From a virus, in IMG/VR virus record IMGVR_UViG_3300027816_000144, positions 1-49,977 of that record: 49,977 nt of DNA; one strand, 5' to 3'. Positions 11,145-31,515 of this stretch are shown here, piece after piece. A program made the translations under genes and the position numbers. Every line of letters begins with the position of its first letter. Position 1 is the stretch's first letter. The notes beneath the pieces are model-generated. The model made no database searches and was not told the DNA's origin. It saw nothing but the letters and a program-made list of their open reading frames with translations.

Positions 11145-13694
11145 TCAGCCTCCTAAGTAGGTTTGTGCTTCACGTTGAAGCTCGGTTGCAGTTTTTACCT
11201 GCTCTTGTTGCAGTTTTGCCGCGTCTCGCGTCAATCTTGCAGACTCTATGCGCTCTTGTGTGAGATTTTTCTCTGTTTGCATCGCCACTTCGAGCTGTTG
11301 ATCCGACTCGAACTGCTGTTTGCTCTGTGTGAGCTTGGCAACGTCGAGTTGTTGTTGGTTTTGAAGCTTTTGAACAGCCAATTGGTTGTCCGCTTGGTCT
11401 TTTGCAGTCAAGCGCTGGGTCTCTGCCATGCTTGTCTGGAGCAAAACCTGTGCTTCTGGTGTCATTGGAGGGGTCTGACCCTGCTTGAGCTTCTGCATTG
11501 TCTGCATCATTGCTTGCAATTCAGGCACAACCTGCGCAAATACCTTCTGTGTGTCCAAGGTAACGTGCTGTGAGGCAATAGCCATGAGCTTGTCCGCCTC
11601 TGGAGTGACCTTTGGATTGTCGTAGTCCGTAGCTTGGCGACCCAAGGTCTTCACAACGTAGCCATTCATGCGGTTCAAGTACCACATGGAGATGTGTTGC
11701 TTCAGGTGCTCGACCATCTGGGGCAGAATAATCGGCTGAACCATGGGGTTTGAACCAAAGATTGGGTCTTTGTAGAAGTCCATGTGGCTCTGGATGTGAG
11801 ACAGGTGGTCTTGCTCCATGTAAGCAAACGCCGCTTGACCGAGCATCATGGCGACGTTCTCATTGGCGGAGTCACGCTTCTCAGGAGAAGGTACGTCTTT
11901 CATGATCTCGTTGATCCCGGGCACCTTGATCTGCTTCAAGAACCGCTCCACCACGACCTTGCGGTTAAACAGGTCTGGGTTCTCTTTCATGATCTGCATC
12001 ACCGCTTGGCTCTGCGCCATACGCTGAGTCTCAGAGAAGATGTGCGGATCAGAAACAGGGATCACGTCCGTGTTGGAAGCAAAGTCTTCCTTGCGAATAT
12101 CGAGGTCAGCGACCACTTCACCCTTGCGTTGCTCTTCCAAGTACCAACGGTTCAGGCGACCAAGGATCTTGAGGACGCGACCTTGGCTGTCATGCAGGCG
12201 TGAGTGGATGGCGGAGAACACTGCGGCGCCCTGCTCGATCAAAGCTTGGGTGGTTCCAACAGGGGTGTTGGAGTTCACGTCAGCGATCTTTTCCTCTGCG
12301 GTGGTCACTACCCCCTTAGCCGCACCGTCTAACCAGCCCAGAAGCTTGAATAAGACCTCTGAGGGTGGGTTAAACGGCATGGGCATGGCAATCTTGCGGA
12401 TGTCGTCAACACCGGGGGCTCCCTCGATCTCACAAACCTGCGTCACGTCCACCTGTTGGGACTGACCCGAGATCTTCGCTCCCTTGAGCTTTAGCATGGT
12501 TGCCGCATTGTTGATATGGGCAGAGTCCAACAAAGCGCGTAGAGAGCCTGTAAGAGCCGCGGAGAGGCCACCAATGAGCTGTGGCAAGCCGATAGCGTAC
12601 GCACCACGCCATGGGATGAACTTGAACTCGACCAGCCAATCCAGTTTGGTCTGTGTCTCGTCACCCTCTTCCCAGTTACGGTACAGACCAACGCACTCGT
12701 TCTCGTGCTCGTCAACCATTAGGATGTAGGGGGCTGACTCACCATTGGTCAGGGGATCGTCCTCTAGCTCGAGCCATGTGTAGATGTGATAGACCTTACG
12801 CAGACCATCCTCGTTGTCGTCCCATTTGCGACCTTCGATCTTGTTGTTGGCTTTCTCAGAGTGGGTTTCCTCTGGCTCAGCGCTTACGCGAACCAAGTCG
12901 ATGTCACGGTACAGACCTGAGCGAATGCGATTCTTGAACTCCCACTCGGTAATGGTCTGCATCTCAGTGACACGTTGAGCGGTGTAGAAGTTCGCGGCGG
13001 CAAAGGGCAACAGGATGTTGTCGATGGGCATGAACTCGGCGCAGGGACGCTTCTTCTTGTCGTCGTACCACAGCTTCATGTACTGTGAACCGCCCAAGGG
13101 GAGCTGAGTCAGCATCTGCTCCTGCTCGTCGCGGAACTCTTCGATCTGCTCAGTCAACTGCCAGTTCATGTAGTCGCGCTTGCGCTCAGCCTTCTGGATC
13201 TTGGCTTCATCCACGTCGCCAAGAATCTTGGTGCGGGTGGGGCCGTCTGGTGGGAACATCTCTTTGATGGCGCGGGAGGCGAAGTCCACGCAGGCTTCAG
13301 CCATGACAGGGTGAACGACCTTGCTGGCGCCCATGAACGTAGCACCGCCCGGGGCATCATTCCCCATGCCTGTACGCTTCAAACCCTCTTCGTACTTCTT
13401 GTCGCGCTCCTCTCGAGACTTCTTGTCGTTCTCGACCAAGTCCATGTAGCGCAGGGCAATCTTGTTCAGGTCATAGGGGGAGATCTCTTCTGCCAAGTTG
13501 GCGTAGAAGTCCTCGTCCTCCATGGGCCCCTTGCTCTCCATGTGAACAATGGCAGAGCCGTCTGGCAACTCTTCAACCTCAGCATCTTCTGGGGGCATCT
13601 CGTATTCAATGCCTTCGTCAGCCTCTACCTGCTGATCTTTTAACCCATCGATAAAACGACCCGCGTTAGGATCTTGTGGGAATTGTGTCGCCAT
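11145..13694 (-). CDS. Portal protein, P22 gp1-like
   Basis: An 849-aa protein of the size of long podovirus portals. An acidic N-terminus is followed by GATFMGASKVVHPVMAEACV and FASRAIKEMFPPDGPTRTKI, a segment I recognise in environmental P22-type portals. The wing/stem part has MPIDNILLPFAAANFYTAQR, VTEMQTITEWEFKNRIRSGL and YAIGLPQLIGGLSAALTGSL. The C-terminal 170 residues are Gln-rich coiled coil (LQNQQQLDVAKLTQSKQQFE), corresponding to the barrel helix that extends into the P22 capsid and is often long in this group. It forms the dodecameric DNA gate at one capsid vertex. It precedes scaffold and capsid genes, and terL lies upstream after two very large genes, an unusual spacing. Confidence 0.85.
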   Translation of the reverse strand: MATQFPQDPNAGRFIDGLKDQQVEADEGIEYEMPPEDAEVEELPDGSAIVHMESKGPMEDEDFYANLAEEISPYDLNKIALRYMDLVENDKKSREERDKKYEEGLKRTGMGNDAPGGATFMGASKVVHPVMAEACVDFASRAIKEMFPPDGPTRTKILGDVDEAKIQKAERKRDYMNWQLTEQIEEFRDEQEQMLTQLPLGGSQYMKLWYDDKKKRPCAEFMPIDNILLPFAAANFYTAQRVTEMQTITEWEFKNRIRSGLYRDIDLVRVSAEPEETHSEKANNKIEGRKWDDNEDGLRKVYHIYTWLELEDDPLTNGESAPYILMVDEHENECVGLYRNWEEGDETQTKLDWLVEFKFIPWRGAYAIGLPQLIGGLSAALTGSLRALLDSAHINNAATMLKLKGAKISGQSQQVDVTQVCEIEGAPGVDDIRKIAMPMPFNPPSEVLFKLLGWLDGAAKGVVTTAEEKIADVNSNTPVGTTQALIEQGAAVFSAIHSRLHDSQGRVLKILGRLNRWYLEEQRKGEVVADLDIRKEDFASNTDVIPVSDPHIFSETQRMAQSQAVMQIMKENPDLFNRKVVVERFLKQIKVPGINEIMKDVPSPEKRDSANENVAMMLGQAAFAYMEQDHLSHIQSHMDFYKDPIFGSNPMVQPIILPQMVEHLKQHISMWYLNRMNGYVVKTLGRQATDYDNPKVTPEADKLMAIASQHVTLDTQKVFAQVVPELQAMMQTMQKLKQGQTPPMTPEAQVLLQTSMAETQRLTAKDQADNQLAVQKLQNQQQLDVAKLTQSKQQFESDQQLEVAMQTEKNLTQERIESARLTRDAAKLQQEQVKTATELQREAQTYLGG

Positions 13695-21357: not shown

Positions 21358-22794
21358 TCATGCTGAGTACGGGTTCTCACGTTTCTTAGCCATACCGCTG
21401 TCCAAGTAGTCGTCCTCGTCGTAGTCGTCCCGCGGTGCTCCGTCGATGTCCAGCCAACCAGCATCACGTAGGAACCGCAAGCCTTGGGTGCAGGCGTCCA
21501 CGAAGTCGTCGTGTGTTGAGTCAGGGAAGCTACAGATCTGGGACACAAAGCCCTCAGCCCAGTCCTTGACGTAGCCCTTCCTGACACTGCTCTCAGGGAT
21601 CCACACACGCCCTGCGGCGATGATGTTGGACACAATGTTAAGGCGTTGGATCTTGTCAGCCCGACCGGGGTTGTACGCCCTCACTGGCAAGTGCCCACGT
21701 TGCAAGTCTTGTATAAGAGCTATGCCTGCGGACTTGTCTTCCACGAGGATCAGGTCTACGCGCTTCTTGTCCTTGCCCTCGCCGTACACCACGTCGTACT
21801 CCTCGATGACCTTGGGGCGTAGGTCTGGGTATTGCAGGCGGTCTTGCCAGCAGTCGATCACCATCGCGGACATAGGGCCGTCCAGCGGCTTGAACACACC
21901 GAACGTGACGGAGGCTGTCGGATCGTTGACAGTCTTCTCCGAGCTGGCGCAGTCGTAGCTTTGCAGGATGTACTCGAACTTGGGGAACGGCTTGTTAGGC
22001 GCCCACAGCTTGAACATGTCGCGCTTAACGATCCCTGATTCCTCAGCATCGATCAGCTCAGCGTGGATCTCCTGCCTGCCAATCTTTGTACCCTCATAGG
22101 ACAGGATCTGCTTCTTAAAGCTTGCAGACAGGTTCTCGAGGTTGACGTAGGTAGATGCCGTCGTGAGGGCTACGTCGTCTCCTTCACGCCCTACGAGCTC
22201 CACAATGAGGTCTTTGGGACGTGGGGTGGTCGTGGCAATGATTTGGGTGCGACCGTCTGCCTTTTTCAGTCGTACGGCGAACTGGATGTTGTACCAAGCT
22301 TCATCGAGGTAATCCCAAGCGGCAAGCTCATCTAGCCATGCGCCATGGTACTGACCACCACGAAAGCGATCAGGCTCGCTGGCGCTGATGCCTTTGATCA
22401 GGCTACCGTTGATCAGGACGATCTCGTGCAGGGCTTTGTTGTAGTCTTTGATTAGGATCGAAGGGATCACAGCCATGAGTCCTGACTCACCCTCAAAGCA
22501 CGTGCCGCGGACGTCCATAGACGTAGGGGCGGAAACCAGCCAGCGTGTGTTGGGGTTCTCCCACGCCCACCACCAGATCTGTTCAGCCGCAGTACGGGTT
22601 TTCCCTGCCCCACGACCAGCCAGCATGAGCCAGATACTCCACCAAGTACCTTGGGGTAGCTTCTGATGATTAAACGCGCCTGAGAGCCATTCCGTGCGCT
22701 TGGCGTAGGCTGAACCGTGGAAGGGGCCGCTCCTGCGCAGGTTGTCCTTGTCAGACAGGATCTCCAGAATCTCTGGCTCTATGACCGCGCTCAT
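21358..22794 (-). CDS. terL: Terminase large subunit
   Basis: A 478-aa protein of normal length for TerL. Walker A is LAGRGAGKT at residues 58-66, and Walker B is HGAWLDELAAW with D155 and E156. The coupling motif is ATTTPRP at 188-194. The nuclease half carries the RNase H-like acidic residues: SYDCASSE (D281), LVEDKSAG (D353) and STHDDFVDA (D429-D430, D433). The enzyme cuts concatemeric DNA and pumps it through the portal. It overlaps terS by 4 nt (ATGA). The next gene is not the portal but a 1654-aa protein, so the usual terL-portal pair is split. Confidence 0.93.
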   Translation of the reverse strand: MSAVIEPEILEILSDKDNLRRSGPFHGSAYAKRTEWLSGAFNHQKLPQGTWWSIWLMLAGRGAGKTRTAAEQIWWWAWENPNTRWLVSAPTSMDVRGTCFEGESGLMAVIPSILIKDYNKALHEIVLINGSLIKGISASEPDRFRGGQYHGAWLDELAAWDYLDEAWYNIQFAVRLKKADGRTQIIATTTPRPKDLIVELVGREGDDVALTTASTYVNLENLSASFKKQILSYEGTKIGRQEIHAELIDAEESGIVKRDMFKLWAPNKPFPKFEYILQSYDCASSEKTVNDPTASVTFGVFKPLDGPMSAMVIDCWQDRLQYPDLRPKVIEEYDVVYGEGKDKKRVDLILVEDKSAGIALIQDLQRGHLPVRAYNPGRADKIQRLNIVSNIIAAGRVWIPESSVRKGYVKDWAEGFVSQICSFPDSTHDDFVDACTQGLRFLRDAGWLDIDGAPRDDYDEDDYLDSGMAKKRENPYSA

Positions 22795-23402: not shown

Positions 23403-23615
23403 TCAGTCCTTCAATCCCCTCATGATCCTTCTATCCATGTCCTTGATGGTGAGCTTGTATTCTTTGTTGAGGCTTTCCAGTTTTGCGGCTTTTACGGTCG
23501 CGTATTTAAGCTTTGACTCAAGCTCCTGCACCTTGACCTGTAGCTCTGTGATGGCTTTGTTTGCCAGCTCAGGGTTTTGTTCTATCCACTCTGGCGCCCA
23601 GATCTCTTCGGTCAT
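23403..23615 (-). CDS. 70-aa coiled-coil protein upstream of terS
   Basis: A small, mostly helical protein. Residues 14-60 form a heptad-like coiled coil (ELANKAITELQVKVQELESK, then LESLNKEYKLTIKDMDRRIM). It overlaps the previous gene by 4 nt (ATGA) and ends about 50 nt before terS. No functional motif is seen. Being read just before terS, it may belong to the same transcript; any packaging role is speculation. Confidence 0.6.
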   Translation of the reverse strand: MTEEIWAPEWIEQNPELANKAITELQVKVQELESKLKYATVKAAKLESLNKEYKLTIKDMDRRIMRGLKD

Positions 23616-23812
23616 TTCTTGAGTCCTCGCACGTAGGCGGCGAAGCTTGCCGTGGTATCCCCACCGTTGCGCATTTTGTCAAACTCGAGCGCTATCTCTT
23701 CGAGTGTGTCGTTCCTGATCTTGTTTGTGATGGGGTCAAGCTGGCGTTGGATCATCTGCCTTTTGCGCCAGCCTAGCGCCTTCTCCCAAATGTTCAGTTC
23801 TGCTTCGCTCAT
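23612..23812 (-). CDS. 66-aa hypothetical protein
   Basis: A charged helical protein (SEAELNIWEKALGWRKRQMI, then LEEIALEFDKMRNGGDTTAS and AAYVRGLKK). It overlaps both neighbours by 4 nt ATGA junctions, a pattern typical of genes translated by re-initiation. No family recognised. Confidence 0.6.
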   Translation of the reverse strand: MSEAELNIWEKALGWRKRQMIQRQLDPITNKIRNDTLEEIALEFDKMRNGGDTTASFAAYVRGLKK

Positions 23813-23955
23813 GAGTTGCGCTCCTTCAGCAAGGCAATCGCTTGCAGAACTGCACTCGCTTGTCCAAGGTTTGTGTTGTAGAGCAAGTCTGTTAGCTCCT
23901 CATCCGTCAACCCCTTCCAAGGGCGTACGTAATCCTGTACGTCGTCGTCATCCAT
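23809..23955 (-). CDS. 48-aa protein with WKGLTDEEL motif
   Basis: Starts at the ATG complementary to 23953-23955 and ends at TGA 23809-23811, overlapping the next ATG by 4 nt. The product begins MDDDDVQDYVRPWKGLTDEE and ends ALLKERNS. The W-K-x-L-T-D-E-E motif also appears in the adjacent 49-aa protein, so the pair are probably paralogues. It is a short acidic helical protein. Function unknown. Confidence 0.6.
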   Translation of the reverse strand: MDDDDVQDYVRPWKGLTDEELTDLLYNTNLGQASAVLQAIALLKERNS

Positions 23956-24097
23956 TGTTTTTCTCCAGCAGTGCGGCTTCAATCTTCTTTGCCCACTCGA
24001 GCACCATGATCATGTTCCAGTTGGAGCTCTCAGCAGTTACGCCTAAAGCTTTCTGAATCTCTTCGTCGGTAAGGCTTTTCCATTCAATCGCGTTCAT
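23948..24097 (-). CDS. 49-aa protein with WKSLTDEEI motif
   Basis: ATG complementary to 24095-24097, preceded by AAAGGA at 7 nt inside the end of the upstream gene. Product begins MNAIEWKSLTDEEIQKALGV and ends KIEAALLEKNNG. It overlaps the upstream gene by 14 nt and the downstream by 8 nt. The motif W-K-S-L-T-D-E-E is shared with the 48-aa neighbour. Motifs like this are frequent at the start of small phage proteins in Burkholderiales phages, with no known function. Confidence 0.6.
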   Translation of the reverse strand: MNAIEWKSLTDEEIQKALGVTAESSNWNMIMVLEWAKKIEAALLEKNNG

Positions 24098-24335
24098 TGC
24101 TCATTCCTTTAGGTCTTGGACAATCATTTGGGGGGATAACGGCACACCAGACGGCTTTGTATTGCCCTCTTGGTGCTACTTCCCACCTGTCAATGTACAC
24201 GTCTGGCATGTTCTTCAACACCTTCCTGACGTTGGTCTTTGGTCTACTCAACAAGTCTGACAGCTCCTCTAAGGTCATGCCATCAGGTATTCCGCGGAGC
24301 GCAACACGTACGCTCTTGATCACAGCCATGGTCAT
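24084..24335 (-). CDS. 83-aa putative helix-turn-helix protein
   Basis: Residues 15-50 (IPDGMTLEELSDLLSRPKTN followed by VRKVLKNMPDVYIDRW) look like a winged helix: a helix, a turn at RPKTN, a recognition-like helix, then a beta wing with WEVAPRGQYKAVWCAV. It starts at an ATG that overlaps the previous stop by 4 nt; a second Met two codons on is possible. It could be a small regulator of late or packaging genes, or a recombination accessory. Assignment rests on pattern only. Confidence 0.55.
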   Translation of the reverse strand: MTMAVIKSVRVALRGIPDGMTLEELSDLLSRPKTNVRKVLKNMPDVYIDRWEVAPRGQYKAVWCAVIPPNDCPRPKGMSNERD

Positions 24336-24511
24336 GGAGCCCCTTTATCGGGCTTTGGAGCCGTTTTCTGGTCGCGTTGAGGGTCAAGGTGCTTAAGGAG
24401 CTGTTCGAGGTTTATAGGGGCTATTTTCTCAAGGCGCTGGATTTCGGTCAAAACGCAGTCAACACCTGCGTTGAACCCTTTGATGTAATCGCTCATTTTA
24501 GTTTCGCTCAT
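24332..24511 (-). CDS. 59-aa hypothetical protein
   Basis: Frame from ATG complementary to 24509-24511 to TGA at 24332-24334. The product begins MSETKMSDYIKGFNAGVDCV and ends DQKTAPKPDKGAP. A second Met six codons in, just after the stop of the upstream gene, is an alternative start. The upstream start overlaps the previous gene by 14 nt, and AAGG lies 9 nt before it. The segment DYIKGFNAGVDCVLTEI is a helix like those in small phage proteins of the G-F-N-x-G type. No function known. Confidence 0.55.
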   Translation of the reverse strand: MSETKMSDYIKGFNAGVDCVLTEIQRLEKIAPINLEQLLKHLDPQRDQKTAPKPDKGAP

Positions 24512-24746
24512 TTCGTTGTGCCTTAGCTCTCATATTGAGGGTTTCTTTGAGGCAAGCCTGCGCCTCTTCGGCGGTCAGGATTCCTCTGCTTTGGAGCTGG
24601 GCGATGCCAGCCTTGAGGTGTGACACAGCGCAGTTCTGTGGCTTGTCCCAGATCCTCTGCATGTTGTTCAAGAGCTGGTCTTCCGTCATGGAGATCCATG
24701 GCTTGTTGGCTGGAACCACACGGCTCCATGTTGTTGTGTCGTACAT
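24498..24746 (-). CDS. 82-aa hypothetical protein
   Basis: Start at ATG 24746, which overlaps the preceding TGA by one base (TGATG) and has AGAGGTGG 4 nt upstream. The product has a short N-terminal beta part (MYDTTTWSRVVPANKPWISM) and two helices (TEDQLLNNMQRIWDKPQNCA, then SRGILTAEEAQACLKETLNM). The T-E-D/E repeats resemble the LTDEE start of the small neighbours. No family recognised. Confidence 0.55.
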   Translation of the reverse strand: MYDTTTWSRVVPANKPWISMTEDQLLNNMQRIWDKPQNCAVSHLKAGIAQLQSRGILTAEEAQACLKETLNMRAKAQRNERN

Positions 24747-24934
24747 CAAGCCACCTCTTTGGCAAGAACAAGTTGCAGGTTAGCCAGCAGTTGCTCGGCT
24801 TCGGCGCGAGTCAGTGGGACGCTCATCATTGAGCGACGACCTTGCAGGCACAGCCATACGCCCTCGTCGTATTGGTCGGCACTGACGCGAATTTCTGCCT
24901 CAGTGTTGATTGATGTTTCGATTTCGTTTGTCAT
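24746..24934 (-). CDS. 62-aa hypothetical protein
   Basis: A small acidic protein: a beta part (AEIRVSADQYDEGVWLCLQG), then RRSMMSVPLTRAEAEQLLAN and a helical end. The pattern of a two-strand sheet ending in L-T-R-A-E-A-E-Q-L is common in short phage proteins of unknown role. The leader before its ATG (TTTACTTGAAAGAACCATC) is nearly identical to that of the 104-aa gene at 25800-26114. An 18-nt UACG hairpin lies upstream of it. Confidence 0.6.
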   Translation of the reverse strand: MTNEIETSINTEAEIRVSADQYDEGVWLCLQGRRSMMSVPLTRAEAEQLLANLQLVLAKEVA

Positions 24935-24963
24935 GATGGTTCTTTCAAGTAAAGTGGGTTGAT

Positions 24964-24981
24964 GGGGAGCCGTAGCCCCCC
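24964..24981 (-). terminator. GC hairpin with UACG (UNCG) loop
   Basis: Minus-strand RNA reads GGGGGGC-UACG-GCUCCCC: a 7-bp stem with one G-U pair and a UNCG tetraloop closed by C-G. It follows the 126-aa gene by 7 nt and precedes the 62-aa gene by 29 nt. There is no U run, so it is better read as an mRNA-stabilising or attenuating hairpin than a full terminator. Confidence 0.5.
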
Positions 24982-24988
24982 GTTTTGA

Positions 24989-25369
24989 TTAACCTGCTTG
25001 CTTCTCAGCAAAAACACGCTTAGCTTCTGTGCCTTGAGCTACATACTCATCAGAGCCGTAAACTGGATCAACTTCATCCCAAAATGTAGGAGCTAAGGCT
25101 TTACCAGACGCAAGAGCGGCATTAACACGAGCGGCTAAACGCTCTGCTTTAGCAGAAGCTTCTTCGCGAAGATCTGGGAAGCAAACGTCGCCCGTCTCTT
25201 CGCAAAAAACTTGCTGAGTGCCGTTAAAAGTAACAGCGTGACGGAAACGACGACCAGCTTCGTTCTCGACAACAACATAAAAGCTATCGGCAATAAAAGG
25301 GCGACCGTCGCAAGCGTAACCTGCGTTGTACAGATCAGATGCGACATATGCTGTGTAAGATTTGTTCAT
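24989..25369 (-). CDS. 126-aa early-region hypothetical protein
   Basis: I choose the ATG at 25369, preceded by AAGGAAATCAAA; an upstream TTG frame is not needed. The product starts MNKSYTAYVASDLYNAGYAC, continues SFYVVVENEAGRRFRHAVTF and FCEETGDVCFPDLREEASAK, and ends DPVYGSDEYVAQGTEAKR. The beta N-terminal half followed by a helix and the W-x-E-x-x-P-V-Y-G-S block occurs in other phage genomes without known function. It is the first gene behind the repeated start element at 25386-25427, so it is likely under repressor control. Confidence 0.65.
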   Translation of the reverse strand: MNKSYTAYVASDLYNAGYACDGRPFIADSFYVVVENEAGRRFRHAVTFNGTQQVFCEETGDVCFPDLREEASAKAERLAARVNAALASGKALAPTFWDEVDPVYGSDEYVAQGTEAKRVFAEKQAG

Positions 25370-25385
25370 TTTGATTTCCTTCAAG

Positions 25386-25427
25386 TAACCGCCTTATTGG
25401 CGTGATTGCATCTTAACATGAAATTAA
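25386..25427 (-). promoter_or_regulatory. Repeated start element, copy 2: operator, extended -10, 5' hairpin
   Basis: On the minus strand, in order: operator TTAATTTCATGTTAA (25427-25413); the extended -10 TGTTAAGAT overlapping its right half; 10 nt; the hairpin CGCC-AATAA-GGCG (25402-25390); then GTTAC and the ribosome binding site of the 126-aa gene. The predicted +1 is the A at 25403, immediately before the hairpin. The operator overlaps the stop codon of the upstream 121-aa gene. Near-identical copies are at 26466-26504 (minus) and 30881-30918 (plus). Confidence 0.7.
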
Positions 25428-25789
25428 AACGATTCAACAGTAGGGACTTTCCCTAATGCCATTTGTTCTTGGTAAGCCTTGATGATGAAGTCGTCCATCG
25501 CAGTGTCAACGCAGATCTCGGTGTATCCCGAGAGCATAGAGCCAAGGTGCCTGCGCTCACGGATCTCCCGCGGGATGCCGGGGAGCTTGTACAGGGTGCT
25601 GAACTCACGGGCTCGGTTGATCAGCCCGTTGTTGTACAGATCGTAGTAGCAGTTCTGCGCCTTGCGAAAACGCTCTAGGTGCTTGTTTTGCTTTTTGCCT
25701 TGGGGTATTTCACCCATGGCAGGGATAAGCGCCTGTAGGGGCGTTACGAGCGCTTGGTAGGCGCCTTGTTCGTTCCAGTACTTTGCCAT
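25424..25789 (-). CDS. 121-aa early-region hypothetical protein
   Basis: Start at the ATG at 25789, preceded by AAGGAG 6 nt away; a longer frame reaching 26041 would overlap the 104-aa gene and has no such site. Product: MAKYWNEQGAYQALVTPLQA, then PQGKKQNKHLERFRKAQNCY, NRAREFSTLYKLPG and a helical end with EICVDTAMDDFIIKAYQEQM. It is a helical, basic protein of no recognised family. Its stop codon lies inside the operator of start element copy 2, so its 3' end and the next promoter overlap. Confidence 0.6.
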   Translation of the reverse strand: MAKYWNEQGAYQALVTPLQALIPAMGEIPQGKKQNKHLERFRKAQNCYYDLYNNGLINRAREFSTLYKLPGIPREIRERRHLGSMLSGYTEICVDTAMDDFIIKAYQEQMALGKVPTVESF

Positions 25790-25799
25790 GGTGTTCTCC

Positions 25800-26114
25800 T
25801 TAATCTGCTCTTGAGCCAGCGTATGCTGAGATGCCATGCTTGCGCAGGACTTCTGCGAATGCATAGGCGCCAGCTTCTTTGACGTCCATGGACTGTGTGC
25901 CGTTACCAGCAGGGTTCCAAATACACCAGCCTTTTTGCCAGTGCTTGCGACCCACGTTGTTTTTCTTGCACCAGCCCACGAAGGGGATACGTGCACTTGA
26001 AATGTCAACCCAAGCAAAGCCACAGTACATTGGCTCGCCATGTTTTTCCATGAAGGCGGACTCAGCGGCTTTAGCGGCGTTGAGGGCTTCTGTGTAGATG
26101 TTGTCGTAGTTCAT
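25800..26114 (-). CDS. 104-aa conserved hypothetical protein
   Basis: A protein with residues NYDNIYTEALNAAKAAESAF, then GEPMYCGFAWVDISSARIPF, FVGWCKKNNVGRKHWQKGWC and SMDVKEAGAYAFAEVLRKHG. I recognise this from many environmental phages (the G-F-A-W-V-D-I and K-x-W-x-x-G-W-x-I-W blocks); its function is unknown. Cys and Trp are frequent, so a small globular fold is likely. Its leader TTTACTTGAAAGACCATC nearly matches that of the 62-aa gene. Confidence 0.65.
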   Translation of the reverse strand: MNYDNIYTEALNAAKAAESAFMEKHGEPMYCGFAWVDISSARIPFVGWCKKNNVGRKHWQKGWCIWNPAGNGTQSMDVKEAGAYAFAEVLRKHGISAYAGSRAD

Positions 26115-26132
26115 GATGGTCTTTCAAGTAAA

Positions 26133-26146
26133 TGCCCCGAAGGGCA
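26133..26146 (-). terminator. Hairpin UGCCC-UUCG-GGGCA
   Basis: A perfect 5-bp stem with a C(UUCG)G tetraloop on the minus-strand transcript, between the 96-aa gene and the 104-aa gene. It is followed not by a U run but by TTTACTTGAAAG, the leader of the next gene. An mRNA-stabilising or attenuating role is more likely than full termination. Confidence 0.5.
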
Positions 26147-26150
26147 GGGA

Positions 26151-26441
26151 TTAGTTTGACAGTGCCTTTGTTTCGGCGGCGAGGATGTTGTAGGTAACCT
26201 TTGTGTGCTTAGCAATCAGCTCAGCAGGAGCGTTCAGCTCTTTGGCAACGGCAGACCATGCTGTCGTTTTCTTTTCTGGTGTGTGCTTGATGGTGGTCAC
26301 GTACATAGTGCCAGCGTAAGAACCTTGACCCAACATTTTGAGTTGGTTTTTGAGGTCATCTGCCTGCTCTTGCAAAGCGGCAATTTGGTCTTCGATCAAA
26401 CCGAGTTGGTCAACGATCTTGAGAGCGGTAGTAGTAGTCAT
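26151..26441 (-). CDS. 96-aa coiled-coil early protein
   Basis: Start at ATG 26441 with AAGGAAATTGGAA before it; the TTG two codons earlier is less likely. Residues 8-40 form a coiled coil (LKIVDQLGLIEDQIAALQEQ, then ADDLKNQLKMLGQG). After this comes SYAGTMYVTTIKHTPEKKTT, a beta hairpin with Lys-rich loop, and a helical end WSAVAKELNAPAELIAKHTK. The coiled coil plus small beta domain resembles host-range or nuclease-inhibitor type phage proteins, but I cannot name a family. It is the first gene after start element copy 3. Confidence 0.6.
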   Translation of the reverse strand: MTTTTALKIVDQLGLIEDQIAALQEQADDLKNQLKMLGQGSYAGTMYVTTIKHTPEKKTTAWSAVAKELNAPAELIAKHTKVTYNILAAETKALSN

Positions 26442-26465
26442 TTCCAATTTCCTTTTTCATGTAAC

Positions 26466-26504
26466 CTGCTTGTTGCAGTGATTGGGATCTTAACACGAAG
26501 TTAA
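26466..26504 (-). promoter_or_regulatory. Repeated start element, copy 3: operator, extended -10, 5' hairpin
   Basis: On the minus strand: operator TTAACTTCGTGTTAA (26504-26490), a perfect TTAAC-N5-GTTAA inverted repeat; extended -10 TGTTAAGAT overlapping its right half; 11 nt; hairpin CTGC-AACAA-GCAG (26478-26466); GTTAC; ribosome binding site of the 96-aa gene. The stem sequence differs from the other two copies but pairs just as well. The expected +1 is the A at 26479 next to the stem. It lies just downstream of the HNH gene. Confidence 0.72.
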
Positions 26505-26523
26505 AACGGTTTGGGAATCTTTT

Positions 26524-26958
26524 TTAAAAAGAATTCGTAGGTGTTTTCCCTATGCTTTGATTTTTTTTAGCTAATTCAATTTTTTCTTTGGCGGCTATGT
26601 AATGCCTATCCCTGCTACGAGGCTCAAAGGTTTGCCTTCTTATGCTTTGGTTTTGTGAGTTTTCACTAGGGTCAACCAGTCTTAGATTGTCGATTCTGTT
26701 GTCAGACCTGTCTCTGTTGATGTGGTCAATAAATTTGCTTAAAGGAATGTCCCCATTTACATAAATCCATGCCAATCTGTGAGCCATCCATGTTTTTTTA
26801 TTTATGCCTATCACGATGTAACCAGTGGGGATGGCGCACCCAGCAACCCTACTAATTCTTTTTTTATAGCCGTTTTTTCGCCACAAAAAAGTACCAGTAA
26901 CGGAGTCGTACTCCAAAATTTCTTGGAGTTGCTTTTGAGTTAAAATTAAATCAGTCAT
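26524..26958 (-). CDS. HNH homing endonuclease
   Basis: A 144-aa protein. An N-terminal part (EILEYDSVTGTFLWRKNGYK) is followed by WMAHRLAWIYVNGDIP and FIDHINRDRSDNRIDNLRLV, the HNH motif with catalytic-type H79 and Asn at 81, 87 and 91. The family also carries an HR-x-A-W signature, present at 60-64. Its composition is more AT-rich than neighbours (long runs of A and T), suggesting recent arrival. It sits between two host genes with its own ribosome binding site (AGAGG) and next to a hairpin, as an intron-less homing element would. It probably cuts sister phage DNA to copy itself. It is not expected to serve the phage. Confidence 0.85.
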   Translation of the reverse strand: MTDLILTQKQLQEILEYDSVTGTFLWRKNGYKKRISRVAGCAIPTGYIVIGINKKTWMAHRLAWIYVNGDIPLSKFIDHINRDRSDNRIDNLRLVDPSENSQNQSIRRQTFEPRSRDRHYIAAKEKIELAKKNQSIGKTPTNSF

Positions 26959-26983
26959 GCGATACCTCTATATCAATTGATGA

Positions 26984-27018
26984 GAAACCCCACAAGGCGC
27001 GCCTGCCTTTGGGGTTTC
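26984..27018 (-). terminator. Long hairpin between HNH gene and Ref-like gene
   Basis: An almost perfect inverted repeat (GAAACCCC...GGGGTTTC, with AAGGC/GCCTT continuing the stem) sits between the HNH start and the stop of the Ref-like gene. No clear U run follows on the minus strand; on the plus strand GTTATTTTATAC follows. It may end transcription of the upstream early genes or insulate the inserted HNH gene. Confidence 0.5.
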
Positions 27019-27031
27019 GTTATTTTATACC

Positions 27032-27304
27032 CTACCTTTTCATCAAAAGGGCAACGACCCTCTCGATGGTGACGTTCAGGGCGTCCTGCTCATCCATTTT
27101 CATCACCGACCACATGCGTCTCTGCCCGTGCCAGCCATTGAAACTCCCTTGGTGGCAGTCCTTGCACAAAGCCACGCAGGTGTACTGCCTATGCTGTTTG
27201 ACGTGGTGTGCGTCACTCGGTGGGGGTGCATCACACACAGAGCACGGGAGCTCTTTGACAAGCCCCACGTACGCTCTTTCCTTCGACGTGAGGTTGTTGT
27301 TCAC
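27032..27304 (-). CDS. HNH-like nuclease related to P1 Ref
   Basis: A 90-aa protein with an apparent GTG start at 27304 in a GTGA overlap with the upstream stop. Residues 19-60 contain LPCSVCDAPPPSDAHHVKQH, then CVALCKDCHQGSFNGWHGQR, giving C21, C24, H33, H34, C47, C50, H51 and H59. This CxxC...HH...CxxCH arrangement matches the Ref (RecA-dependent nuclease) and DUF968-like HNH group. P1 Ref enhances recombination by RecA-directed cleavage; the reduced form here may do the same. With the RusA gene upstream it makes a recombination cluster. Confidence 0.72.
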   Translation of the reverse strand: MNNNLTSKERAYVGLVKELPCSVCDAPPPSDAHHVKQHRQYTCVALCKDCHQGSFNGWHGQRRMWSVMKMDEQDALNVTIERVVALLMKR

Positions 27305-27651
27305 AGAGTCGCCTTGTCAACGTGGCGATTAGAAGCCTCCATAGAGCGCCATACGGCGATTCTTTCCTGACAGGCTATGAGGAGCCATCTGAGGCGTTCG
27401 CGCTCCTCTACGGCTTGTCTAAGGGCTTCTAGGTGCTCTCTGTAACGTGGGGAGGCGTAGGCTTCGCGCTCTTGCATGGCGGCGGTCTTGTACTCACCGT
27501 TGCCATAGATCTCGGCGTTCTTCATCTCTTCGGCTTTGATGGTCTTGCGTAGCTCCTCCATGTACACCTTTGTTGCCTCTGCCTCGGCGTACTTGGCTGA
27601 GTTGGTGATCATGAAGTCCACGGCTTCGTTTGGGTCAATAAGCTTGCTCAT
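27301..27651 (-). CDS. 116-aa conserved protein of the recombination cluster
   Basis: Start at the ATG at 27651, in a 4-nt overlap with the RusA stop and with GAGGAAC upstream. MSKLIDPNEAVDFMITNSAK is followed by a long helix (EATKVYMEELRKTIKAEEMK), then AYASPRYREHLEALRQAVEE and LRWLLIACQERIAVWRSMEA. The A-Y-A-S-P-x-Y block and R-W-L-L-x-A-A/C-Q motif occur together in many phages beside recombination or replication genes. The function is not known to me. It lies between RusA-type and Ref-type nucleases, which suggests a helper role in replication or recombination. Confidence 0.65.
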   Translation of the reverse strand: MSKLIDPNEAVDFMITNSAKYAEAEATKVYMEELRKTIKAEEMKNAEIYGNGEYKTAAMQEREAYASPRYREHLEALRQAVEERERLRWLLIACQERIAVWRSMEASNRHVDKATL

Positions 27652-28007
27652 GTTTGTTCCTCGATTTCGATTAAGAGTTTCCCGGGTTTTGTTCCAAATT
27701 TTCTGTAAATCATGATGGGCTGAAACAGTTGGTCGTTCACCATCAATGCGTCGGCTAAGCCGTCCAGCGCTCCCTTTGCCGCGGCAAGGCAATTGTCCGC
27801 GTCGCGCTTTCGTTTATCAGGCATCTCAAACGTCAGCGTAAGCCTCAGTTCTCCACCTGCATGTTTCCAGCCCTTGATCTGGTGCTTAGCCAGCCAAGTA
27901 CTGCTGTCACGGTAGTCAGACCGTAATTGGTAGAGCTTGCCCCAGTGCGTACCCTTGGCACGGTTTGGGAAGAGTTCCGCAGGCGGAAAGTCCAACTCAA
28001 TCCGCAC
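27648..28007 (-). CDS. rusA: RusA-type Holliday junction resolvase
   Basis: A GTG start at 28007 gives 119 aa, the same as E. coli RusA (120). The upstream longer frame would overlap the 82-aa gene. IELDFPPAELFPNRAKGTHW is the RusA start. RKRDADNCLAAAKGALDGLA carries D69 and D71, and VNDQLFQPI carries D92, matching the catalytic Asp triad D70, D72 and D91 of E. coli RusA. RusA cuts four-way junctions symmetrically; in phage it resolves recombination or replication intermediates before packaging. Confidence 0.85.
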   Translation of the reverse strand: MRIELDFPPAELFPNRAKGTHWGKLYQLRSDYRDSSTWLAKHQIKGWKHAGGELRLTLTFEMPDKRKRDADNCLAAAKGALDGLADALMVNDQLFQPIMIYRKFGTKPGKLLIEIEEQT

Positions 28008-28245
28008 GGTGCATCCGCGTTCTGATTGCGTGTGCCAGCTCGTCAAAGCCTGCTTGTTGGGCAACCTGTGCGCAGGCTTCACGCTCGATGCCAATGGCTT
28101 GCTTCGTGGTCTGTATCGCTACAGCCATGATCTCAGCCTTAGCCTGCGCCAGCCCCTCTTCAAATTCTTTTGCTGTGAACAAGGTCTGTCCTGTGCCCTG
28201 AGCAAAGAACTTCTTTTGAAAGTCACTGAGTTCTACTTTTGCCAT
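27997..28245 (-). CDS. 82-aa early-region helical protein
   Basis: Mostly helical: LSDFQKKFFAQGTGQTLFTA, then KEFEEGLAQAKAEIMAVAIQ and ACAQVAQQAGFDELAHAIRT. It overlaps the RusA start by 11 nt and the 64-aa gene by 23 nt. The ending (AHAIRTRMHRAD) is typical of small early phage proteins, and I recall similar ones near resolvase genes. Function unknown. Confidence 0.6.
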   Translation of the reverse strand: MAKVELSDFQKKFFAQGTGQTLFTAKEFEEGLAQAKAEIMAVAIQTTKQAIGIEREACAQVAQQAGFDELAHAIRTRMHRAD

Positions 28246-28417
28246 TTTCTCGCTCCTTTTTCATTCGGTTTACTAGGTCATTCATAGCATCGGTTCCACG
28301 ACGCTTCTCGATGTCATTCTTTACTTTTTGCCACCATGATTGCGCGCTCCCTGAGCCTAGCTCGATAGCCTTCTTCTCGTACCGTTTCATCCACTCTCGC
28401 GCTTCGCATTGTTTCAT
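28223..28417 (-). CDS. 64-aa basic protein, overlapped by another frame
   Basis: I place the start at the ATG at 28417 because AGGAGA lies 11 nt upstream and because residues before it look like a different reading frame. The product is MKQCEAREWMKRYEKKAIEL, then SAQSWWQKVKNDIEKRRGTD and AMNDLVNRMKKERENGKSR. The C-E-A-R-x-W start and the S-W-W-x-K-V-K...K-R-R-G block are familiar from small phage proteins. It overlaps the 72-aa gene by about 104 nt and the 82-aa gene by 23. A longer start at 28522 would give 99 aa with a less convincing N-terminus. Confidence 0.6.
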   Translation of the reverse strand: MKQCEAREWMKRYEKKAIELGSGSAQSWWQKVKNDIEKRRGTDAMNDLVNRMKKERENGKSRTQ

Positions 28418-28532
28418 GTGTTCCAAGGTCTCCTGTGAGATAGAGACATTCGATGGCGCAAGCCTCGGTGTAGGCATCACCAAACCCACTGCGGATTTCA
28501 TCGAGGATTTTTTGGGCTTCATGCTTGGTCAT
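28314..28532 (-). CDS. 72-aa early-region protein overlapping the next gene out of frame
   Basis: Start ATG overlaps the previous stop by 4 nt and has AAAGGACAAGG upstream. Residues 1-38 (MTKHEAQKILDEIRSGFGDA and YTEACAIECLYLTGDLG) look like a short family of phage proteins ending in L-T-G-D. Residues 39-72 (THETMRSARVDETVREEGYR...) are coded by the same DNA as the start of the 64-aa gene in another frame and look less conserved. Either a true long overlap or a shorter ancestral gene extended by frameshift is possible. Confidence 0.5.
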   Translation of the reverse strand: MTKHEAQKILDEIRSGFGDAYTEACAIECLYLTGDLGTHETMRSARVDETVREEGYRARLRERAIMVAKSKE

Positions 28533-29329
28533 CCTTGTCCTTTAAGTTCACGGTCAGCCACGTAGTCATGCACGATAAGTCCGTTCTCAATGCTACCTAC
28601 CCACATCTCAGGTATCCATGTAAATCCACCTGCGCTTAAACGCCTCATGTGGGCGCGTCGCTTATGGCGAGCCGGGCTTGCGTGTGTGCCGCCCTTATGC
28701 GGTTGCTTAACCTGCGCGTCTGGCTTTAATTCAATTGTGTTCCACGAGTACACCAAAGGCTGGTGCTTTGCCCTGCGCTTGCGATTGATGAACTCCATAC
28801 CTCTTGCCATGTGCGCGGTGACTACCTGCTCAGTGGTATGTGCTCTCAAGTTAATCAAACAGGCGTAGTTAACCGCGCTAATGCAAGCGTCCTCGTAAAG
28901 CTTCATGGCATCAGGTTCCGTCATGCCGTTGCGCTTAGATGCATCCATAAGTTTTTGATGGATCACGACATTTGTTCCGTCTCCCTCATCGCCAACAACA
29001 TGAACCCGCTTCTCCGTAACTATTGCCAACGGAGACTCAAACCCGTCGTTTGTCCACAGCATGACAGCGGCTCCCTCGTATCCACCAAACTTGATGTATT
29101 TGTCGTAGGTAAACGCAATGTCAGGCCATGCTGGTTGTATGACCGCCATGTGATCAGATGGAGTTAAAAACTGGTCAAGATGCATCATCTGATTGTGCCA
29201 ACCGTATTGGCGCCCAACGCTTTTTAACTCTTCGTCCGCGTGATCACCAAGTTCTGAAAAATCAAACCATGTGTAATCAGCGGCATCAAATCCAACCTTA
29301 GATGCCATGTCAGCTACTTTTGGGTTCAT
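28529..29329 (-). CDS. 266-aa early-region protein with Arg/His-rich C-terminal module
   Basis: The first 190 residues (WFDFSELGDHADEELKSVGR, then FTYDKYIKFGGYEGAAVMLW and LAIVTEKRVHVVGDEGDGTN) look like a globular mixed alpha-beta domain of unknown fold. The last 60 residues contain HKGGTHASPARHKRRAHMRR followed by GGFTWIPEMWVGSIENGLIV, a module I recognise from numerous phage genomes, with many Arg and His and a VGS..G...HDY ending. Nucleic-acid binding would suit the basic part, but this is inference. It overlaps both neighbours by ATGA junctions. Confidence 0.6.
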   Translation of the reverse strand: MNPKVADMASKVGFDAADYTWFDFSELGDHADEELKSVGRQYGWHNQMMHLDQFLTPSDHMAVIQPAWPDIAFTYDKYIKFGGYEGAAVMLWTNDGFESPLAIVTEKRVHVVGDEGDGTNVVIHQKLMDASKRNGMTEPDAMKLYEDACISAVNYACLINLRAHTTEQVVTAHMARGMEFINRKRRAKHQPLVYSWNTIELKPDAQVKQPHKGGTHASPARHKRRAHMRRLSAGGFTWIPEMWVGSIENGLIVHDYVADRELKGQG

Positions 29330-29748
29330 GATTTCCTCTTTGCCAATCCTGATCGGATAGCCAGCTCGTTGCGCAGGCGGTACTCGTACTTTGTTTTGCG
29401 GATCTTCTCGTGCTCGGTGGGTTGGAGCTCTGGCTCATTGTCAAACAGGGCGGCAAACTCTTGCCACTTTGGTGGGTAACCATTGACGCTGGCGCCCCAC
29501 GAGATCATGTCGATCTTCATGACTTCGTTGATCGCAACACGGACGTTCTCGGCGTCACGCAGGGCTTCTGTCACGCGAGGCCACGTGTCCGAGGTAGCCT
29601 GATGGTGGTAGGCGCAGACCCAGTTGCCACCAGTAGAGATCCCACCAGCCATGGGGCAACCATTGGCGAAGCAGTTGTGACTGACTTCCTGATCTTCAGG
29701 GAATGTTGTTTTTTCAGCGTAGCGCTGTTTGGCTGATGCGTAACTCAT
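29326..29748 (-). CDS. 140-aa zinc-ribbon-like early protein
   Basis: Residues 24-50 hold HNCFANGCPMAGGISTGGNW followed by VCAYHH, giving Cys/His ligands suitable for a zinc ribbon. The rest is helical and basic (SDTWPRVTEALRDAENVRVA, then KIRKTKYEYRLRNELAIRSG). Similar proteins lie directly next to DUF1376-type replication genes in other phages, as here. A replication accessory role is possible. It overlaps the 248-aa replication gene by 4 nt; the ribosome binding site is AAGGAG. Confidence 0.6.
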   Translation of the reverse strand: MSYASAKQRYAEKTTFPEDQEVSHNCFANGCPMAGGISTGGNWVCAYHHQATSDTWPRVTEALRDAENVRVAINEVMKIDMISWGASVNGYPPKWQEFAALFDNEPELQPTEHEKIRKTKYEYRLRNELAIRSGLAKRKS

Positions 29749-30491
29749 TTTTGCTCCTTGTGGTATGTGCCTTCAATGACTCTGGGAAACTTGCTTGGGT
29801 TGAACAGGAAGTCCATGTCAGCCTTCCAGTCCTTTGATTTGCCTGTCAGGAACTTCGAGGTCTTGACCATCTCAAAGTACCAACGGAAAAAGTCCAACCC
29901 ACCCTGCCTGTCAAGTTTGTCAGCAGTGACAACCTCACGCCATCTGGCGGCTATAGCCCTCTTGCGAGAATCGTTGACAACAACAGTCTGTGGCAGTTCA
30001 GGAAGGATGGTGTTGTACATCTCAACTATTTCCTGAATTGGTGCAGGTGGCACTGACTTCGGCTTGCCGAGGTCAGGAGTAGCGTTAGCTACTTTAGATT
30101 GGTTATTGGTTAATAGTTCTTGGTTATTAGTTGCCTTAGCGCTGGGTTCCGAGTCGGATCCCATTGGGTTACCCACTGGGTTCTTTCTACGACCACCCAA
30201 TTTGCCATTAGCCCTGTTTTTCTCTGCCATGGCGTGATAGTGCTCAATAACTTCTTGGCAACGAGAATGAAACCATCCGTCATCATGTTTGACAAACATG
30301 TCAGACAGAACTGCGTTAACCGTCTTGGTATCGACTCGCAAACGTCTGGCAACCCACTGGGTATCCAATGGGATCTTCTGTTCGGTGTCGTAGTACATAT
30401 CGAGAAGCCTGCGATAAGCAAGATCCTCGTCGTTTGAAAGATGAGCTGTGGCGGCTCTGTAGTCGCCGATGCTGAATTGATAGTAGTGCAT
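29745..30491 (-). CDS. DUF1376 (YdaU-like) replication-initiation-type protein
   Basis: A 248-aa protein from ATG 30491. The N-terminal 105 residues are a clear DUF1376 domain: MHYYQFSIGDYRAATAHLSN, then EDLAYRRLLDMYYDTEQKIP, KTVNAVLSDMFVKHDDGWFH and ANGKLGGRRKN. A disordered linker (residues 105-150) separates this from a helical C-terminal domain with IVEMYNTILPELPQ, FFRWYFEMVKTS and WKADMDFLFNPSKFPRVIEG. The domain is common in proteins that take the place of the phage O-type initiator. AT-rich 9-nt repeats lie in the linker DNA. No helicase or loader is found next to it. It is the first large gene after the repressor and probably shares its transcript. Confidence 0.75.
   Translation of the reverse strand: MHYYQFSIGDYRAATAHLSNDEDLAYRRLLDMYYDTEQKIPLDTQWVARRLRVDTKTVNAVLSDMFVKHDDGWFHSRCQEVIEHYHAMAEKNRANGKLGGRRKNPVGNPMGSDSEPSAKATNNQELLTNNQSKVANATPDLGKPKSVPPAPIQEIVEMYNTILPELPQTVVVNDSRKRAIAARWREVVTADKLDRQGGLDFFRWYFEMVKTSKFLTGKSKDWKADMDFLFNPSKFPRVIEGTYHKEQK
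30099..30128. repeat. AT-rich TTGGTTATT repeats inside the DUF1376 gene
   Basis: Three near-identical 9-mers in the plus strand: TTGGTTATT at 30099, TTGGTTAAT at 30106 and TTGGTTATT at 30120. They sit in the disordered linker (Asn-Asn-Gln codons) of the DUF1376 gene. The lambda origin also lies inside its initiator gene as iterons, so an origin is possible. Coding of the repeated NNQ could equally explain it. Confidence 0.4.
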
Positions 30492-30590
30492 ACCGATCCC
30501 AATAACACATCCCAAAAAGAAACAGCGGCAGGCGGGGATGGAACGCTTTTCGGAACGGGTAATTAGTCCGTCCTAGCCGTGCTTCAAACT

Positions 30591-30797
30591 CTACACGAAA
30601 AACAGATCTGGACGCAAGTCTTTTCTTGTGACCAAACCTTGTGTTGCTTTTTCAATCTTAACCGCCAACGCGGCTGATGCAGTTCTACGCTCATGAATGA
30701 GCAGAGACATCCATGTCAGGCTGATGCCCAGATACTCTGCCATCTCACCTCTTGCGCCCAACGGCTCCGTCGAAAAGTACTCTTGCAATGTCATCAT
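30591..30797 (-). CDS. Cro/YdaS-like transcriptional repressor
   Basis: A 68-aa protein from ATG 30797, preceded by AAGGA at 7 nt. TLQEYFSTEPLGARGEMAEY, then LGISLTWMSLLIHERRTASA and LAVKIEKATQGLVTRKDLRP form a five-helix Cro/C1-type helix-turn-helix: helix 2 GARGEMAEYLG, recognition helix LTWMSLLIHERR, and the end V-T-R-K-D-L-R-P-D seen in Cro-like YdaS proteins. It lies next to an operator (30824-30838) and divergent from the rightward operon, the classic arrangement of a phage control switch. No separate CI-like or integrase gene was found in the window. Confidence 0.78.
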   Translation of the reverse strand: MMTLQEYFSTEPLGARGEMAEYLGISLTWMSLLIHERRTASAALAVKIEKATQGLVTRKDLRPDLFFV

Positions 30798-30823
30798 TGT
30801 TCTTCCTTGGCGGCAAGTATACA

Positions 30824-30838
30824 TTAACTTTAAATTAA
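30824..30838. promoter_or_regulatory. Operator copy 1, upstream of the repressor gene
   Basis: TTAACTTTAAATTAA, matching the TTAA-N7-TTAA pattern of the three start elements. It lies just upstream of a TATACT -10 box (minus strand, 30822-30817) for the repressor gene, so binding would block its own promoter. It also contains the 13-bp palindrome CTTTAAATTAAAG (30828-30840). Autoregulation is the obvious reading. Confidence 0.65.
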
Positions 30839-30880
30839 AGATACCCCTACGTTTCACTCGGGAATGTATTGTGTTGGTTT

Positions 30881-30918
30881 TTAATTCGGTGTTAAGATTC
30901 GTGTACGCCGATACGGCG
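30881..30918 (+). promoter_or_regulatory. Repeated start element, copy 1: rightward early promoter with 5' hairpin
   Basis: In order on the plus strand: operator TTAATTCGGTGTTAA (30881-30895), extended -10 TGTTAAGAT, 10 nt, hairpin CGCC-GATAC-GGCG (30906-30918), then GTTA and AAGGAG before the TTG start at 30934. TTGTGT at 30869 with an 18-nt spacer is a weak -35. The predicted +1 is A30905, directly before the stem. The layout is the same as in the two minus-strand copies. Confidence 0.72.
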
Positions 30919-30933
30919 GTTAAGGAGAATCAA

Positions 30934-31152
30934 TTGGAAAAGCAACTTCCCTACACGACCAAGTCTGGTCTTCAAATTGGGTGCAACTACACCCCTCCCC
31001 AACGCAATTACATGAGTGCTGATGCAGAGCTTCTGCAAATGGCATTGCTTGGCATTGAGCCTGAGTTCTCTCAGCGCCGCATTGCTGGCTGGATTGCCTA
31101 TGCCCTCTTCTTGATTGCGCTGTACGCAGTGCTGATCGTGTGGGAGGTTTGA
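30934..31152 (+). CDS. 72-aa early membrane protein
   Basis: Starts at TTG 30934, supported by an ideal ribosome binding site (TAAGGAG, 6 nt spacing); no ATG is available before residue 27. The product is EKQLPYTTKSGLQIGCNYTP, then SADAELLQMALLGIEPEFSQ and a C-terminal membrane helix RRIAGWIAYALFLIALYAVL. A soluble N-terminus of about 45 residues and one transmembrane segment suggest a peripheral inner-membrane anchor. First gene of the rightward operon, so among the earliest made. Confidence 0.65.
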   Translation: MEKQLPYTTKSGLQIGCNYTPPQRNYMSADAELLQMALLGIEPEFSQRRIAGWIAYALFLIALYAVLIVWEV

Positions 31153-31153
31153 C

Positions 31154-31420
31154 ATGAACCGCAATGAAATTTTAAAACTTGCTGAGAAGGCTGAGTTGAT
31201 AAGCCTTGGCCCAACAAAAAACGTATGGCAAAAAAAAGTGGAAGAAGAGATTCAAGACCAATGCTTTCATTTTGCTGAGTTGTTGTTTGCTCATTGGGAC
31301 AATGAAACTAAACCAGCAAAGGTTTCTCCGTTGGAGTTTGTGACCATCACAATGGAAAAAGAACATTTGATTGGTCGTCCAATTATTTGGGCTGAGTGGC
31401 CTAACAAGGAGCAAGCATGA
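31154..31420 (+). CDS. 88-aa early protein
   Basis: ATG 31154 with GGGAGG upstream, one base after the previous stop. The product reads MNRNEILKLAEKAELISLGP, then QKKVEEEIQDQCFHFAELLF and FVTITMEKEHLIGRPIIWAE. The start N-R-N-E-I-L-x-L-A-x-x-A resembles small phage proteins of unknown role. Mostly helical, with Cys and His in the middle but no zinc pattern. Overlaps the 32-aa gene by 4 nt. Confidence 0.55.
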   Translation: MNRNEILKLAEKAELISLGPTKNVWQKKVEEEIQDQCFHFAELLFAHWDNETKPAKVSPLEFVTITMEKEHLIGRPIIWAEWPNKEQA

Positions 31421-31515
31421 GCGACGAAGAATTTAAGGCTATGCGCCTGAACGTGATCCTGTTCTTCATCGGGGCACTGATCCTTGCCCTTGACCTTTTT
31501 ATTTGGAGACCCTAA
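31417..31515 (+). CDS. 32-aa single-pass membrane peptide
   Basis: A very short gene: ATG 31417 overlaps the previous stop by 4 nt (ATGA), and its TAA shares a base with the next ATG (TAATG). The product MSDEEFKAMRLNVILFFIGA continues to LILALDLFIWRP: an acidic start, then one hydrophobic helix of about 20 residues. The precise two-sided coupling strongly supports translation. Small early membrane peptides can affect host membrane or superinfection, but no function can be assigned. Confidence 0.65.
   Translation: MSDEEFKAMRLNVILFFIGALILALDLFIWRP

Follow-up and report, generated by a model that had tools for sequence, protein, structure and literature searches.

Genes and features at the locus

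The window, that is, the whole stretch of DNA analysed, is the IMG/VR virus record IMGVR_UViG_3300027816_000144 (49,977 bp), in which the minus strand carries replication genes and other small non-structural genes below 30.5 kb, a plus-strand operon begins at 30.93 kb, and a minus-strand gene of the YdaS/Cro type is placed between both gene blocks (Table 1). The 68-aa product of this gene matched PF15943 (YdaS_toxin, 1.6e-12) and PHROG 35 (transcriptional repressor, 1.4e-9), and no neighbouring gene was recognised as being of the CI or CII type. The first genes downstream of the hairpin leaders of the window had no match in Pfam or PHROG.

An element of several parts is present in the window in three copies, on both strands (plus 30879-30922, minus 25429-25386, and minus 26506-26462), as a sequence-only reading had reported and direct reading of the window sequence bore out. 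The parts of each copy follow in the order TTTTAA-N5-TGTTAAGAT, 6 nt (7 in the third copy), A, a hairpin (4-bp stem, 5-nt loop, 4-bp stem), GTTA, and a ribosome binding site. The P1 hairpin can alternatively be read as CGCCG-ATA-CGGCG, with a 5-bp stem and an AUA triloop.

Table 1. Coordinates of the features in the window
Feature	Position	Strand	Description
Portal	11145-13694		
Terminase	21358-22794		
P2 operator dyad and -10	25429-25410	-	-10 TAAGAT, 25415-25410
P2 predicted +1	25403	-	A
P2 hairpin	25402-25390	-	CGCC-AATAA-GGCG; then GTTA, 25389-25386
P2 gene	ATG at 25369	-	126-aa protein
P3 operator dyad and -10	26506-26487	-	-10 TAAGAT, 26492-26487
P3 predicted +1	26479	-	A
P3 hairpin	26478-26466	-	CTGC-AACAA-GCAG; then GTTA, 26465-26462
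P3 gene	ATG at 26441	-	96-aa protein
YdaS/Cro-type gene	30591-30797	-	68-aa helix-turn-helix protein, presumed repressor; divergent from P1
Repressor's own promoter	30816-30838	-	TTAA-N7-TTAA, 30824-30838; -10 TATACT, 30821-30816; no 5' hairpin
P1 operator dyad	30879-30898	+	TTTTAA-N5-TGTTAA, overlapping -10 (TAAGAT, 30893-30898); found ahead of almost every homologue of the P1 gene
P1 predicted +1	30905	+	A, 7 nt past -10, preceded by T
P1 5'-terminal hairpin	30906-30918	+	CGCC-GATAC-GGCG
P1 ribosome binding site	30922-30927	+	AAGGAG
P1 gene	TTG at 30934	+	72-aa protein of unknown function

Within the window, TGTTAAGAT occurs three times, solely at the element copies. The looser motif TTAA-N7-TTAA occurs five times against 0.57 expected, a count reached in 0 of 100 shuffles; three of the occurrences belong to the element copies, one to the repressor's own promoter, and one (10823-10837) to a coding region. 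The last is a perfect dyad, TTAACA-TTT-TGTTAA, inside a small ORF of the structural region, and may be an extra operator or a chance occurrence. A leader grammar composed of -10, YA, stem, loop, stem, (G/T)TT, SD, and start codon picked exactly the three copies in the window and nothing in 20 block shuffles of the window and MW202545.1. Taken as a separate repeat, TTACTTGAAAG was not above chance at 3 mismatches. A weak Rfam match to int-alpA (30508-30583, E 0.05, below the gathering score) was rejected.

Further short motifs were noted around the element. At 24954-24934 and 26133-26114 (minus strand), a hairpin with TTTACTTGAAAGAnCATCATGA stands before two genes inside the same operon; both hairpins are without a recognisable promoter and resemble the P2 and P3 leaders, and hairpin leaders may also work after processing. 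In locus L303 (about 1287-1307, plus), the same leader hairpin and ribosome binding site, lacking operator and -10, possibly lie between operon genes. A perfect short dyad, AGGGAAAGTCCCT, is found at 25453-25441 (minus), close to where the gene immediately preceding P2 ends; several relatives retain it ahead of their promoters (L029, L034, and L045, with a variant in L338).

Phages carrying the element and probable host

The closest named relative of the window phage is MW202545.1, an uncultured phage from Manatee Spring, which was the sole match when named phages were searched by BLAST with the element as query. The element-bearing phages form a large, uncultured, mostly freshwater group for which no cultured member was found, and a scan of GTDB genomes for the element gave 0 matches. 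Terminase relatives in genome assemblies were MAG contigs labelled Burkholderiales (2), Rubrivivax, Legionellaceae, and Gammaproteobacteria, and two of these contigs carry the element. The host of the window phage is likely a member of Burkholderiales, an assignment that is not proven because the binning of phage contigs is unreliable.

Position of the hairpin in relatives

Upstream regions of homologues of the first genes were retrieved via protein similarity, not via the element, and nearly all of them carried the element with compensating changes in the stem; among the homologues, the P1 stem is replaced by CGTC/GACG or CGCT/AGCG. Homologues of the YdaS-type protein adjoin the element in relatives.

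IMG/VR was scanned twice with the operator/-10 pattern alone, and the offset count was taken from the second scan. Of the 71 distinct contexts, 43 had a Watson-Crick hairpin beginning 7-8 nt past the -10, and a single one had it at any other offset from 0 to 34; this strict test excluded stems with a G-U pair, and many of the remaining contexts were such stems or coding matches in unrelated phages. Reciprocally, when the hairpin alone was used for the scan, operator and -10 were found at the right spacing in 71 of 77 distinct contexts. In the fetched loci, 458 full elements were counted against 1 in the same sequences reversed; since these loci partly overlap and part of them were retrieved with the full element pattern, this count shows abundance and specificity, not independence, and the argument is carried by the offset and reciprocal tests. 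The search of relatives established the element as a conserved unit, and its order of operator, -10, and hairpin at the predicted RNA 5' end, already proposed from the window, is strongly supported by the relatives, the reciprocal searches, and the compensatory changes.

Structure and variation of the hairpin

The hairpin is mostly 13-16 nt long with a stem of mostly 4-6 bp, for which at least 11 distinct sequences were found, either of 4 bp (CTGC/GCAG, CGCC/GGCG, CCGC/GCGG, CCAC/GTGG, CGTC/GACG, CGCT/AGCG, CGGC/GCCG, and TCAC/GTGA) or longer (CGGTC/GACCG, CGTTC/GAACG, and CGATCA/TGATCG, the last in MW202545.1 as CGATCA-CGT-TGATCG). The loop varies widely in sequence and size (GATAC, AATAA, AACGTC, CGT, ATGT, and a 16-nt apical part in L068) and frequently begins with AA, and GTT follows directly 3' of the stem in 137 of 175 elements.

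Pairs were counted within equal-length classes, MAFFT having misaligned the 3' arms when loop lengths were mixed. The covariation score was 0.723 in one class (0.145 shuffled, at most 0.106 slid) and 0.500 in another (0.250 shuffled); because the rows had been preselected as perfect stems, these scores support the variety of pairs, not pairing itself, and the percentage paired is not evidence. Among CGGTC stems with a single defect, the mismatch was G-U on the RNA strand in 7 sites and A-C in none. Base pairing, not sequence, is what is conserved in the hairpin. On folding, the short stems had stabilities of -5 to -7.7 kcal/mol, and the hairpin formed with the ribosome binding site left open; compared with shuffles, the leaders were not unusually stable (z -0.3 to -1.8). 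Rfam gave no family match at the gathering score in the window region 23500-31500.

Predicted transcription start and transcripts carrying the hairpin

The usual distance from -10 to +1 is 6-7 nt. An A directly precedes the stem in all but 2 of 175 elements (173), with a pyrimidine at -1 in nearly all, and this A together with the usual spacing predicts a transcript with one unpaired 5' nucleotide followed by the stem. Judged from the -10 spacing and the YA initiator, the stem is predicted to begin at +2. The starts foreseen in the sequence-only reading (30905, 25403, and 26479) coincide in the sequence with this pyrimidine-A step adjoining the stem.

Hairpin leaders precede many different first genes. 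Distinct promoter-like operator sites numbered 220, of which 182 had the hairpin and 2 more a long-loop form; the 36 sites without it were mainly the repressor's own promoter, the promoter of an oxygenase gene, and chance matches. In the relatives examined, the repressor's own promoter has the dyad with no hairpin after it. The second class of operator promoter lacking the hairpin drives a gene that in MW202545.1 encodes a 2OG-Fe(II) oxygenase (PF13759); such promoters were seen in L102 (5670, minus) and also in L220, L222, L226, L232, L245, L275, and L279.

Operator, promoter hexamers, and repressor

The dyad conserved throughout the family is TYTAAC-N5-GTTARA. This shared palindromic operator overlaps the promoters under its control as well as that of the repressor itself. 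In the homologue set, GTTA is constant, whereas the T of TGTTA varies, as expected if GTTA is an operator half. Many relatives have a TTGACA-like -35 hexamer at a spacing of 16-19 bp from the -10, and "extended -10 without -35" is therefore not a general rule. The variable T and the -35-like hexamer in many relatives thus correct the proposal of an extended -10. The usual spacing between -35 and -10 is 17 bp; many CTAAC-type elements (e.g., L103 at 37415, minus) have the TTGACA-like hexamer at 19 bp.

At L101 (3841-3960, plus), a different dyad, TTGAA-N7-TTCAA, occupies both the repressor promoter and the divergent promoter, and the 5' hairpin (CGCC-ATGT-GGCG) is kept behind this different operator. 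The YdaS-type protein of L101 is more divergent, and the dyad has changed at both promoters alongside it, which links protein and operator. We infer that the YdaS-type protein binds the dyad. The operator without hairpin at the repressor promoter and the L101 hairpin behind another dyad indicate that operator and hairpin are separate parts. Of the fixed combination claimed for the three window copies, the conserved unit stands; obligate coupling of operator and hairpin does not, as the repressor and oxygenase promoters and L101 demonstrate.

Comparison with known elements

The nearest described repeated phage element that was found is SAS/ESAS of cluster K mycobacteriophages, likewise an inverted-repeat element repeated ahead of many small non-structural phage genes, with a consensus that shifts between subclusters (PMC3203893). 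SAS/ESAS are defined by a 13-bp GGGATAGGAGCCC repeat just before the start codon and by 17-bp inverted repeats, neither of which agrees with the present leaders, and the authors reported little support for an RNA hairpin in the 17-bp repeats of ESAS (PMC3203893); unlike ESAS, the hairpin here has compensatory and G-U changes and stands at a fixed distance after the -10. HK022 put RNA likewise forms a structure at the beginning of an early phage transcript, but it comprises two stem-loops in about 70 nt and is present at two sites (PMC9378689), whereas the element has a single hairpin, mostly of 4-6 bp, with a variable loop.

The 5' stem-loops of the enterobacterial ompA and papA mRNAs are similarly located at or very near the 5' nucleotide, and stem-loops of this type stabilise mRNA by hiding its end from RppH and RNase E (PMC3997798 and references there); ompA and papA are single genes, whereas the present hairpin recurs in a fixed position at numerous promoters within a single phage regulon. 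In prophage CP-933P, YdaS is an analogue of Cro and covers palindromes in footprints; its regulon shares with the window phage a small YdaS helix-turn-helix protein, divergent promoters, and palindromes overlapping the promoters (PMC8630535). Unlike the CP-933P regulon, the regulon described here has a different operator sequence, no recognised CI- or CII-type gene, and a 5' hairpin after the controlled starts.

Proposed function and alternatives

Computation on the sequences shows the dyad and the -10, a hairpin locked in position with compensating changes, and a repressor transcript that lacks it; the exact start site and the stabilisation of mRNA by the hairpin are predictions. The reading that we favour, at about an even chance, is a regulon of a Cro-like repressor in which the target transcripts carry a 5'-terminal hairpin from the moment they are made, most likely as a shield against RppH and RNase E. 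Sigma-70-type phage promoters would be controlled by the YdaS/Cro-like repressor bound to the dyad overlapping the -10, and transcription would start at the A directly before the stem, so that a controlled mRNA would consist at its end of 5'-pppA and a hairpin of 4-6 bp. With the 5' end hidden, RppH would most likely remove the triphosphate more slowly and RNase E would be slower in its 5'-end-dependent attack, and hairpin-led messages would outlive host messages. The repressor message, being without a hairpin, would turn over faster, which would permit quick adjustment of repression. Slightly more tentatively, the hairpin may be regarded as a regulon-wide 5' "cap" placed with near single-nucleotide precision and withheld from the repressor's transcript, with lifetime and transcriptional control coded in one portable unit.

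Decay protection is the function best matched by a hairpin at +2, since the distance of the hairpin from the predicted start is constant and its sequence and loop are free to vary; single-stranded 5' ends are needed or preferred by RppH and RNase E, and this accounts for the stabilising effect of 5' structures (PMC3997798). Several points count against decay protection: only about 10% of E. coli mRNAs are affected when RppH is lost (PMC3997798), the stems are short, the stability of the leaders is not unusual, a single unpaired nucleotide remains at the 5' end, the AA loop starts could serve a binding partner, and the hairpin is absent, for no known reason, at the operator-bearing oxygenase promoter. 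A role in initiation or translation rather than decay, such as promoter escape, prevention of backtracking, or insulation of the ribosome binding site, would agree with the fixed distance from the -10, with the open ribosome binding site shortly after the hairpin, and with the leader ahead of a gene without a recognisable promoter in L303. An insulating hairpin would not need to start exactly at +2, and the repressor gene, which also has this operator and a ribosome binding site, does without a hairpin; this role is considered unlikely, if the strongest of the alternatives. Slightly less probable is recognition of the hairpin by RNA polymerase or by an RNA-binding protein, with the hairpin acting in put- or boxB-like antitermination, in anti-pausing, or as a translational operator. 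HK022 putL also lies at the start of a phage transcript, just downstream of PL (PMC9378689), and the frequent AA at the loop start and the GTT directly after the stem could be recognised; on the other side are the widely varying loops, the lack of an Rfam match at the gathering score, and a length of mostly 13-16 nt compared with about 70 nt and two stem-loops in put RNA (PMC9378689).

The repeat is also a perfect DNA dyad in most copies, and might be a second DNA operator with no role in RNA. Its arms, however, differ among the promoters of one phage yet remain complementary, the G-U pairs of the variant stems (7 sites) break the symmetry of the DNA and not the pairing of the RNA, and its position is locked to the predicted start even behind the different operator of L101, which makes such an operator very improbable. 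Shared ancestry without function, by the copying of one promoter, would account for the flanking similarity (TTTTAA and GTTA) common to the three window copies. It hardly needs to be entertained, given the compensatory changes, the conservation in phages whose terminases are only about 65-69% identical, and the many different first genes behind the element, and the offset, covariation, reciprocal, and reversed-sequence tests strongly disfavour it.

Implications

Terminal hairpins at the 5' end are a textbook means of stabilising bacterial mRNA. We know of no viral regulon that uses them throughout as a standard component maintained in evolution. Each part of the element is of a known kind; for the fixed regulon-wide combination of operator, -10, and hairpin, no description was found in the open-access literature searched. 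L101 represents a natural specificity switch of the operator and repressor. With dozens of natural variants of a stem whose place next to the predicted start is fixed, the set provides material for gauging 5'-end protection during infection, and in uncultured, mostly freshwater phages the element strongly marks start sites and a regulon at the sequence level.
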